Assembly (NCBI RefSeq): GCF_000312365.2
Contig: NZ_HG003686.1
Span: 1-64,000 of the forward strand
Direction of reading: 5' to 3'
From: Anaerococcus provencensis
Lineage (GTDB): Bacteria; Bacillota; Clostridia; Tissierellales; Peptoniphilaceae
Length of the DNA: 64,000 bases
Positions 7,918 through 53,993 of the stretch are shown piece after piece; the first letter of the stretch is position 1, and every line of letters begins with the position of its first letter. The position numbers were made by a program, and so were the translations under genes. A model generated the notes under the pieces. That model ran no database searches and was not told the origin of the DNA. It was given only the letters and a program-made list of their open reading frames with translations.

Positions 7918-9498
7918 ATGAAAACCGTTACAAATACATCATCACTAACTAATTTTACACTAGTTAATGATACAATTCAATTAAAATTAAACTTTAATAC
8001 AGAAATATACATTCAAAATGATGTTAAACTAAGGCTTGTAAAAAAATATAAATTGAAAGGATAGATCTAGCAGAATTAAAAAAAGTACTCATCATTTGGA
8101 AGAAAACCTACTGTAAATCCAGTAACTATGCTGGAAATAATAATATTCTGCTATTCAGAAGGAATATTCTCATCAAGGGAAATAGAAAAATCATGCAAAT
8201 ATGATCTAAGAATAAAATATTTACTAGATGGACAAAACCCACCAGATCATTCTACCATAAACAGATTCAGACAAAAAATAGTAGAACTAACACCCAATCT
8301 ATTAAATCAAATGGTCCAAATACTAATAGAAGAAAAACAAATAGACCTATCAAGCATATACATAGACGGAACAAAAATAGAAGCCTACGCCAACAGATAC
8401 AGTTTTGTATGGCGAGGAAGCATAGAAAAATGGCAAGAAAAACTAAGAGTAAGAATAATAAAGCACTTCGATTTAAGTAATGAATTAACCCCATCCCAAG
8501 TATTAGAAATAGTAAAAATAGTATTTAATCAAGTAAGTAAAGAATGTAAAGAAAAAAAGATAAACTTTGTACATGGGCAAGGCAAAAGAAAACACCAACT
8601 TCAACGAGACTATGAACAATTAAAAGATTGGAAAAACAAACTAGAAACTTACAATAAACATTTAGAAATAATGGGCGATTACAGAAACTCCTACTCAAAA
8701 ACAGACTATGATGCAACCTTCATGAGAATGAAAGAAGACCACATGAGAAATGGTCAACTAAAACCAGCCTACAAAAAATTAGCCCGTCCGGCTCGTGGAG
8801 GACTAGCAAGTGCATCAGGCTTCATCATAGGAGAAAATGTATCACACCATCCATCCGATATGTACACCCTAAAACCATTCTTAAAAAAACTACAAGAAAA
8901 CTATCCAAACAAACTAGACAAAATAGTAGCAGATGCAGGATATGAAAGTGAAGAAAACTATGTATATCTAGCAGAGAACAATCTAACATCCTACATAAAA
9001 CCATCAAACTATGAAAAATCCAAAACACGGAAATATAAAAAAGAACAAGCATTTAAGGAAAGCTTAAACTATGATGAACATCAAGACAAATACATATCAG
9101 AAGAAGGTAAAGAATTCGTAAGATGTAAAGATAGATATAGAAAAAGAAAAAGCGGATATGTAACAACAACTAAAGTCTACAGGTGTTTCGACTGGAACAA
9201 AGATGGTAAAAAAACCAAAGGAATCTACATATCAGAAACATTCCAAAAATATAGAAAAGAATCCTTAGAAAACATAAGATCAGCCCAAGGAATAGAAGAA
9301 AGATTAAACAGATCAATCCAAGCAGAAGGAGCATTTTCCAAAATAAAATCAGGACTAAACTACAATAGATTCCACCACAGAGGAAAAGCAAATATAATAA
9401 GTGAAATATGCCTATTGTCAATGGCACTAAACTTAAACAAATTATCATCAAAAATAGAAAAAAGAAACTTAGAAATCATAAAATATAAAGCTGCCTAA
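7918..9498 (+). pseudogene. IS1182-family DDE transposase, frameshifted at the 5' end
   Basis: A continuous 456-codon frame (8128-9498) carries the three catalytic acids of the family: Asp in IYIDGTKIEAYA, Asp in IVADAGYESEENY, and Glu in AEGAFSKIKSGLNYNRFHHRG. The natural start appears to be the ATG at 7918. From there the N-terminus reads correctly for about 40 codons, stops near 8062, resumes in another frame (IDLAELKKV, about 8058-8085) and shifts again near 8086 before GRKPTVNPVTML. At least two frameshifts therefore separate the start from the catalytic part. A 25-nt GC-rich motif interrupts the usually conserved KPxYNxQ region (see 8780). I judge the gene inactive, though translation from 8128 is possible. 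Confidence 0.8.
8780..8804 (+). repeat. GC-rich dispersed motif inside the transposase frame
   Basis: This segment matches the motif after the 5S gene (293-317) at most positions: TAGCCCGTCCGG, then CTC..GGAGGAC. In the protein it encodes LARPARGGL, between LKPAYKK and ASASGF. IS1182-type transposases usually have Asn-x-Gln directly after the LKPAY-like residues. The motif keeps the reading frame open. Confidence 0.65.
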
Positions 9499-53059: not shown

Positions 53060-53614
53060 ATGAATTCTTTTATAAGCTTTGAACTTTCTATACTAAATGC
53101 TATACAAAAAATAAGAAGACCATTTCTAGATGAATTTATGGTTGCCATATCTTCTCTAGGAAATGGAGCAATACTTTGGATATGTTTAATCATAGTATTC
53201 CTATCAACAAAGGAATACAAAAAAATGGCCCAAATAATGATTATTGCCTTTATAGGAAACTTAATAATTATAAACCTGGGCCTAAAAAACATAGTTGATA
53301 GGACAAGACCATATGAATATGTAAAAGGATTAGAATTATTAATACCAAAAGTAGGCAATGCCTCATTCCCATCAGGCCACAGCTCATACGCCACCACATT
53401 TGCGACAATTATACTATTTATGGGTAAATCAAAATTTCTAAGAATATTCACCTTAGTTTTGGCTATATTAATCTCATTTAGCAGGCTATACCTCCACGTC
53501 CACTTTCCTTCAGACATTCTAGCAGGTATAATACTTGGCATTGTAATAGGAATATTATCAATGAAATTTTATTTTTCGGGATATTATAAAAAACTGCGTT
53601 TACAAGGCAAATAA
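53060..53614 (+). CDS. PAP2-family membrane phosphatase
   Basis: The 184-aa protein has about five hydrophobic segments and the three PAP2 motifs: KNIVDRTRP (KxxxxxxRP), PSGHSS and SRLYLHVHFPSD (SRxxxxxHxxxD). It could dephosphorylate undecaprenyl diphosphate or phosphatidylglycerol phosphate outside the membrane; the window makes both lipids (uppS, pgsA). It begins 1 base after the CapA-like gene. The tRNA-Leu promoter lies in its last codons. Confidence 0.9.
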   Translation: MNSFISFELSILNAIQKIRRPFLDEFMVAISSLGNGAILWICLIIVFLSTKEYKKMAQIMIIAFIGNLIIINLGLKNIVDRTRPYEYVKGLELLIPKVGNASFPSGHSSYATTFATIILFMGKSKFLRIFTLVLAILISFSRLYLHVHFPSDILAGIILGIVIGILSMKFYFSGYYKKLRLQGK

Positions 53615-53627
53615 AATATGGTATACT
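53599..53627 (+). promoter_or_regulatory. tRNA-Leu promoter
   Basis: TTTACA (53599-53604), 17 bases, TATACT (53622-53627), 17 bases before the tRNA. It overlaps the end of the PAP2 gene. Confidence 0.85.
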
Positions 53628-53644: not shown

Positions 53645-53731
53645 GCCGGTGTGTTGGAATTGGCAGACGAGACAGACTCAAACTCTGTTGTCCACCAGGG
53701 CGTGTGGGTTCGAGTCCCACCACCGGCACCA
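53645..53731 (+). tRNA. tRNA-Leu (anticodon CAA)
   Basis: An 87-nt class II tRNA with the CCA encoded. The acceptor stem is GCCGGTG with CACCGGC; the anticodon arm is ACAGA-CTCAAAC-TCTGT, giving anticodon CAA for UUG codons; a long variable arm and T-arm GGGTTCGAGTCCC follow. An extra-long, structured, GC-rich 3' trailer (see 53734) separates it from its terminator at 53963. Confidence 0.96.
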
Positions 53732-53733
53732 CA

Positions 53734-53935
53734 ACAAGCCTGGCCGGCTTCCTGAGAGGCCTCGCGACCAAAAGTCGCGAAACAACCGCAACGAAGTGAG
53801 GACCTAAAAACTGCCGAAGGCACAATATAAACAAGCCCGCCCGGCTAAGAGAGGACTAAACTCGCCTCCCCGGCGCAGAGAGGGGTCGTGCCCTATAGGC
53901 ACGAAACAACCGCAGACCCTTTAGGGTCGAGGACC
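53734..53935 (+). repeat. Two tandem structured GC-rich repeat units (possible ncRNA) behind tRNA-Leu
   Basis: Unit 1 is 53734-53804 and unit 2 is 53830-53935. Each begins AACAAGCC...CCGGCT..(A)GAG(A)GG, then has a 7-bp hairpin, the identical 13-nt CGAAACAACCGCA, a small inner hairpin, and GAGGACC. The 7-bp stems are TCGCGAC/GTCGCGA (53762-53780) and TCGTGCC/GGCACGA (53886-53904); two pairs differ and both changes are compensated. The inner hairpin is GACCCT-TT-AGGGTC in unit 2 and ACGAAGT in unit 1. No protein frame fits. It lies between the tRNA and its terminator, so it should be transcribed. Confidence 0.75.
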
Positions 53936-53962
53936 AAAAAAGCTTCAATACATATTAAAAAT

Positions 53963-53993
53963 GCTCATAATCAACAGATTATGGGCTTTTTTT
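53963..53993 (+). terminator. Terminator of the tRNA-Leu transcript
   Basis: GCTCATAATC, loop AACA, GATTATGGGC (one G-T pair), then seven T residues. Confidence 0.88.

Follow-up and report, generated by a model that had tools for sequence, protein, structure and literature searches.

Small, dispersed and structured repeats are already known, and several described systems resemble the sequences analysed here. The rtT repeats of the E. coli tyrT operon lie in tandem in the 3' part of the tRNA transcript and carry a piece of the tRNA 3' end. The REP, BIME and REPIN sequences that go with TnpA-REP (RAYT) are small, many-copy, mostly extragenic and folded repeats forming composite arrays, and a GTAG-type tetranucleotide before the palindrome is a REP feature according to PMC8266576 and PMC3733652. 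Repetitive (double) hairpin-forming elements of sponge and fungal mitochondria are small folded repeats situated by tRNA and rRNA genes; in PMC2800124 their mobility is inferred and the mechanism unsettled. Tandem H-type pseudoknots constitute the antitoxin RNAs of type III toxin-antitoxin systems (ToxI, CptI and TenpI), with a one-base first loop in the case of CptI (PMC4627078).

Two related units lie at 53733-53808 and 53859-53939 of the window (the whole stretch of 64,000 nucleotides that was analysed, from Anaerococcus provencensis), flanked by tRNA-Leu(CAA) on one side and a terminator-like hairpin on the other. A preliminary description of this DNA had recognized this position, the common layout with an identical 13-nt linker and a GAGGACC tail, and outer stems TCGCGAC/GTCGCGA and TCGTGCC/GGCACGA that differ at two positions on each arm with the pairing kept, all of which was confirmed in the sequence. 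In the following list class I is the design of the window units, class II is a second design presented below, and R1 and R2 are covariance models built from four and 48 copies, respectively.

53599 to 53627, + strand: promoter-like site of tRNA-Leu, TTTACA-17-TATACT (consensus match only)
53645 to 53731, + strand: tRNA-Leu(CAA) with the CCA encoded (ARAGORN, Rfam RF00005, sequence letters)
53733 to 53808, + strand: unit 1, class I, with pseudoknot head, hairpin, linker, inner hairpin and GAGGACC (R1 and R2 scores)
53736 to 53761, + strand: H-type pseudoknot head of unit 1, stem 1 53736-53740/53746-53750, stem 2 53742-53745/53758-53761 (sequence, column covariation)
53762 to 53780, + strand: hairpin of unit 1, TCGCGAC-CAAAA-GTCGCGA, arms 53762-53768 and 53774-53780 (sequence, covariation)
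53778 to 53790, + strand: 13-nt linker CGAAACAACCGCA of unit 1 (sequence match)
53786 to 53804, + strand: CC, inner hairpin AC-GAA-GT and GAGGACC of unit 1 (sequence, covariation)
53830 to 53856, + strand: remnant head of a third element, class II (sequence, comparison with genome G024)
53859 to 53939, + strand: unit 2, class I element (R1 and R2 scores)
53863 to 53885, + strand: pseudoknot head of unit 2, stem 1 53863-53866/53872-53875, stem 2 53868-53871/53882-53885 (sequence, covariation)
53886 to 53904, + strand: hairpin of unit 2, TCGTGCC-CTATA-GGCACGA, arms 53886-53892 and 53898-53904 (sequence, covariation)
53910 to 53935, + strand: CC, inner hairpin GACCC-TTTA-GGGTC (53915-53928) and GAGGACC of unit 2 (sequence)
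53963 to 53993, + strand: intrinsic-terminator-like hairpin (53963-53986) and T run (consensus match)

The second copy of CGAAACAACCGCA lies in unit 2 at 53902-53914. With one mismatch allowed, 0.03 matches to this linker are expected in the window, and two matches occurred in 0 of 100 shuffles. Unit 1 scored 90.4 bits with R1 and E 2.9e-14 with R2, and unit 2 scored 89.2 bits and E 5.4e-17, both models having been built with both units. The remnant head at 53830-53856 has one mismatch in stem 2, and a whole class II element occupies this place in G024. Promoter-like sites numbered 5 in the window (1.7 expected) and terminator-like sites 2 (0.8 expected); since these are consensus matches, the co-transcription of tRNA-Leu and the units is a prediction. 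The neighbours of the locus encode a PAP2 protein and DNA polymerase I (polA). The earlier remark that no named family has this layout was borne out, as no Rfam family matched at its threshold: among 4227 families only the tRNA and a distant 5S rRNA passed the gathering score in the window. The L10 leader (RF00557) reached 30.6 bits over unit 2 plus the terminator, below its 44-bit cut-off, and was rejected; the match is partly carried by the terminator, the neighbours are PAP2 and polA, and the window's own genome had no match at E<=0.001.

The "GC-rich head" of the preliminary description is present but is not a plain GC-rich stretch, as in each unit four loop bases pair downstream (stem 2 in the list). 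The head was recognized as an H-type pseudoknot of 24-27 nt, in which stem 1 of 4 or 5 pairs encloses a loop of five bases, the last four of which pair with a four-base stretch past stem 1. Covariation, proposed earlier as a check, was found in alignment A3, made with MAFFT, not fitted to the structure, and judged against a structure itself drawn from some of the members: 90.5 % of cells were paired in comparison to 74.7 % in shuffles, and 17 of 23 pairs had changes on both sides. In the pseudoknot helix 97.4 % of cells pair and both-side changes were seen in 3 of 4 pairs; the loops GUCC, CUCC, GUGC, GCCC, GGCC, GCGC and CCCC are nearly always matched by their complement, with 5 failures in 192 cells. 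A3 comprises 47 of the 69 R1 matches and one hand-added unit (L001:1456-1537), and leaves out 22 matches that are duplicates, hybrids, long-insert copies or class II-like copies.

In the head scan, which by design requires a complementary second stem, the spacing increased with the length of stem 1. As tabulated for 165 of the 201 distinct heads, a four-pair stem 1 had one spacing in 116 heads and a spacing longer by two in 1, and a stem 1 of five or more pairs had either spacing (31 and 17 heads); because related copies share the feature, this rule represents few independent events.

Three designs have the head in common, the two larger ones as their 5' part. In class I it is followed by further hairpins, as in the window units. 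Class II has a short CCAC-GGA-GUGG hairpin and was found in rRNA spacers and in tandem arrays. The third design is the bare head of 24-27 nt, standing alone or, at several places, in tandem every 23-24 nt. In G007 and G015 (L185-L197 and L225-L234) many bare heads were seen by eye near the apex of longer recurrent inverted repeats. In the class I copies at L049, L076 and L071 the first hairpin has its loop enlarged by approximately 75 bases, which makes the loop look like a landing site itself. Another repeat, with TACGAAAAC...GTTTTCGGGGTAAATATGC stems, lies beside class I elements or is fused to them at L059, L065, L073 and L088, and some of the arrays shared by the two contain further repeats (GGCGTTTGAGCG and others).

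The units are not a private tail of tRNA-Leu but belong to a wider Anaerococcus family. Further copies in related genomes, the other check proposed earlier, were found with R1 in 17 of 31 Anaerococcus genomes (E<=0.01) and with R2 in 20 of 130 genomes of the family Peptoniphilaceae (E<=0.001), all 20 being Anaerococcus, one genus of 39; ten of these 20 contributed sequences to R2 and match by construction. The head pattern occurred at 220 sites in 24 of the 31 Anaerococcus genomes. Outside the genus, 2 of 99 Peptoniphilaceae genomes had a single site apiece and none of 119 further genomes from the order had any; a reversed-pattern control had 0 matches throughout. The two sites outside the genus (L179 and L180, in G078 and G095 by list order) have the wrong spacing and contain no proper head. 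In the fetched DNA 117 heads were counted per 253,503 bases in comparison to 6 in a shuffled control that preserves base content in 50-nt blocks, not dinucleotides; a part of the 117 stems from chance or from the opposite strand of an adjacent element. When named genomes were scanned with the pattern, copies appeared in A. octavius, A. nagyae, Anaerococcus sp. 9403502 and Anaerococcus sp. mt242. The same scan gave matches in Nocardia, Kitasatospora and a Thermoplasmata archaeon with R2 scores of 19.9, 22.5 and 11.9 bits, likely by chance; Anaerococcus copies there reached up to 84.9 bits, although some scored equally low. No DNA similar to 53732-53940 was found in the plasmid and phage collections, and 15 viral contigs with a single head-pattern match each, none repeated within a contig, were read as chance. 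Among the genomes searched, this dispersed family is restricted to Anaerococcus. No description of an Anaerococcus pseudoknot repeat family was met in the literature search, as far as the accessible parts of the sources extend.

The copies sit at gene edges. At 288 distinct tRNA loci, fetched because they hold elements or tRNAs, sense heads were found 3' of the gene at 38, and in 33 of the 38 stem 1 starts 3-7 nt behind CCA; the remaining ones start 58 and 93-95 nt behind it. These counts refer to a view of approximately 98 nt around the tRNA (a view of approximately 80 nt gave 33 of 34) and, as in all counts given here, related copies are not independent events. Owing to this choice of loci the share of tRNAs with elements is not a genome-wide figure; the distances should be unaffected. 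Antisense heads 5' of tRNA genes were found at ten loci, at 1-8 nt in nine cases and at 29 nt in one, among them tRNA-Arg(CCU), tRNA-Cys and tRNA-Asp. Heads in the opposite orientations (5 antisense 3' and 16 sense 5') were never nearer than 46 nt, and the 16 sense 5' heads are probably for the most part elements behind the preceding tRNA of an operon. A trend towards lower R1 scores farther from the gene within arrays did not appear when one G024 array was scored with R2, and no conclusion is drawn from it.

Edges of other genes are also occupied. Copies follow the stop codon of groEL (verified with Pfam in L070, and at four more loci by flank likeness) and lie between the 16S and 23S genes and between the 23S and 5S genes of rRNA operons. 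Antisense elements stand directly before the aptamer, at the 5' edge, of the FMN riboswitch (L045, L075, L079 and L215). At the FMN site of G024 there is no element, yet the letters of its first eight positions are kept, which fits insertion and deletion alike.

Occupancy differs between tRNA genes. Behind tRNA-Leu(CAA), judged by eye in 29 of 31 loci (that of G001 was not located and G014 lacks the locus), intact units were present in 4 of 29 species, degenerate ones in 2 and no clear element in 23, G011 being counted as empty in spite of a faint trace. Copies stand behind tRNA-Glu(UUC) in seven species and in an eighth where the locus is truncated at that point. This suggests landings that are old and have been retained; maintenance for some use would account for them as well. 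At L090:1462-1534 (G013, behind tRNA-Arg(UCU)) a class I inner hairpin runs straight into seven T and looks co-opted as an intrinsic terminator. The window's own genome has a second cluster, behind tRNA-Arg(CCG). In two tRNA operons of this genome (L042 and L043) tandem stretches behind tRNA-Met and tRNA-Asp end in apparent copies of a tRNA 3' half, reminiscent of the tyrT rtT repeats. The window units resemble rtT repeats in their tandem arrangement in the 3' part of a tRNA transcript and differ from them in being dispersed over the genome.

Signs of movement came from two comparisons. The first concerns a copy inside a transposase gene of the window:

8777 to 8803, + strand: bare pseudoknot head inside a DDE transposase open reading frame, 8128-9498 (empty sites in relatives)

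Of 28 loci with this gene in the genus, 20 were aligned, and 9 were filled and 11 empty, both kinds being present within G026. The filled site is 22 nt longer than the empty one (21 nt in the window's copy). CTAGC lies on both sides of it, a possible target-site duplication, but the event is not clean, since a few further bases of the site also differ. AACTAGC, present in the empty copies of G026, is also the sequence at the beginning of such heads. By this alignment the bare head entered the transposase gene as a DNA insertion, the empty site within one genome documenting one insertion only. As far as a single event allows, template switching with microhomology appears a better description of the route than clean transposition.

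The second comparison is that with G024. The head and first hairpin of unit 2 equal those of the first unit of G024, and unit 1 in the window has a different head on the same (old) tail as that first G024 unit. Because of this match the two window stems are taken to come from two modules and not from one stem repaired after a duplication. The compensatory changes pointed out in the preliminary description are real covariation, but neither unit is a plain duplicate of the other. Head modules were shown to have been swapped between neighbouring species (G000/G024).

Taken together, the units are most likely dispersed Anaerococcus repeats with a predicted pseudoknot core that spread as non-autonomous DNA and are not working parts of the tRNA, a conclusion held with reasonable, though not high, confidence. 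A mobile DNA hairpin had been one of the options offered earlier, and a mobile, non-autonomous structured DNA repeat is now the best reading. The fold would matter at the DNA level, and a folded single strand would produce a new copy by being joined into a neighbouring gap or copied there, through template switching or a putative single-strand recombinase. Gene edges may be occupied because landing is harmless there or because folded DNA attracts it, and tandem arrays would lengthen as more copies land and units exchange with one another. From their position, both units of the window are predicted to be part of the tRNA-Leu transcript, as a 3' trailer that tRNA maturation would remove. The excess on tRNA genes of sense 3' landings (33) over antisense 5' landings (9) counts against the DNA reading, as do the copies behind tRNA-Glu(UUC), the unclean nature of the single documented insertion and the fact that the search for a mobilising enzyme found none.

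The most serious competitor, although an unlikely one, is that the units act as RNA, either as a structured 3' trailer guiding or protecting tRNA maturation or as a released small RNA, with the fold kept by selection. The covarying structure, the 33 of 38 sense copies flush behind CCA and the location of the units between promoter-like and terminator-like sites would all be expected of such a role, as would the tRNA-Glu(UUC) copies in seven or eight species and those in rRNA spacers. The distribution behind tRNA-Leu(CAA) fits this role poorly, with intact units in so few species, and so does the copy in the transposase gene; at the antisense copies 5' of tRNA-Arg(CCU), tRNA-Cys, tRNA-Asp and the FMN riboswitch a transcript would carry the complement.

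Where selection keeps an RNA folded, G-U pairs are tolerated in the RNA's own strand whereas A-C pairs are not. In the fetched loci 87 G-U and 5 A-C were counted in the acceptor and T stems of 99 distinct tRNAs, in comparison to 12 G-U and 9 A-C in the element stems (p 5.6e-5); the latter count omits two end pairs that many sequences lack (columns 5-19 and 37-43), and with them there are 13 G-U and 34 A-C. The earlier argument from the paired changes to selection on structure was not supported as far as an RNA is concerned, there being no overall G-U excess while antisense copies and the transposase copy exist. When the copies were split, on small numbers and after the data had been inspected, the 33 in sense behind tRNAs had 11 G-U and 3 A-C, a bias of the kind that RNA selection would give, and the 15 others 1 and 6. 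Because of the former ratio a weak RNA-level constraint behind tRNAs is possible.

It was also considered, and held improbable, that template switching plus unit exchange produced the covariation without selection, the elements having neither a mover nor a function. Template switching in replication can create paired changes in hairpins and has been proposed for RNA genes (PMC8794818), so covariation alone is not decisive. Double changes with few G-U intermediates and the G000/G024 head swap agree with such an origin. Taken alone it leaves the position at tRNA edges and the arrival in the transposase gene unexplained, and the interleaved stems of a pseudoknot would be harder to maintain than a plain hairpin.

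That the units are REP-type palindromic repeats, mobilized in folded single-stranded form by a Y1 transposase (RAYT or IS200-type), is quite doubtful. In size, dispersal, extragenic position, folded core and composite arrays the elements are like REPs and BIMEs, and Y1 (IS200-type) transposases are present in 21 of the 31 genus genomes. However, the presence of Y1 copies does not track the elements across these genomes, so that Y1 was rejected as the mover: the element-rich G008 and G012 (9 and 8 class I matches) have no Y1 match, and G009 and G010, with 5 and 8 Y1 copies, contain bare heads (4 and 8) but not a single class I match. GTAG was found just before (within 16 nt of) 13 of 201 heads, with approximately 10 expected by chance, and CGTC before 1 of 201. 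In contrast to REP/RAYT systems the core is a pseudoknot, not a simple palindrome, and it abuts tRNA edges. Terminal inverted repeats of the MITE kind were not found in an ungapped comparison at the model's ends, in which the outer 10 nt of 48 class I copies were on average complementary at 3.3 of 10 positions (best 7), and no candidate for a mobilising enzyme was found. Integron attC sites and group II introns were considered only in passing and set aside. For the mitochondrial hairpin elements, compared by description and not by sequence, neither a pseudoknot core nor an edge rule is described in the available part of PMC2800124.

That the units are antitoxin repeats of a type III toxin-antitoxin system is scarcely credible, as in spite of the tandem pseudoknots, whose first loop is a single base like that of CptI (PMC4627078), and the bare heads recurring every 23-24 nt, there is no toxin gene beside the array in the window (PAP2 and DNA polymerase I), the copies are dispersed, not every one in a tandem array, and composite units carry extra hairpins.

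In its pseudoknot core, its edge rule and its bare 24-27-nt form the family departs from the small dispersed structured repeats already known. A bolder proposal, offered as a tentative possibility, is that the bare 24-27-nt pseudoknot is a gene-less mobile element that would spread as folded single-stranded DNA, its 5' end docking on the 3' foot of a folded strand, which might be a tRNA, the opposite strand of a tRNA or riboswitch, or a copy already in place; the arrays behind tRNAs might then seed larger structured RNAs by module exchange. If this is true, the bare pseudoknot would be among the smallest known mobile elements.

A covarying fold commonly passes as proof that an RNA is functional. 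In this family covariation is strong and extends to the pseudoknot, although the copies look like mobile DNA. The family therefore calls for caution where RNAs are identified from covariation alone, and it offers a natural setting in which to study how paired changes arise without RNA selection. The tRNA edge rule is a target in the search for a new insertion mechanism. The tRNA and rRNA spacers of Anaerococcus, which is encountered chiefly in humans, are long and variable, and part of them would be explained by the family.
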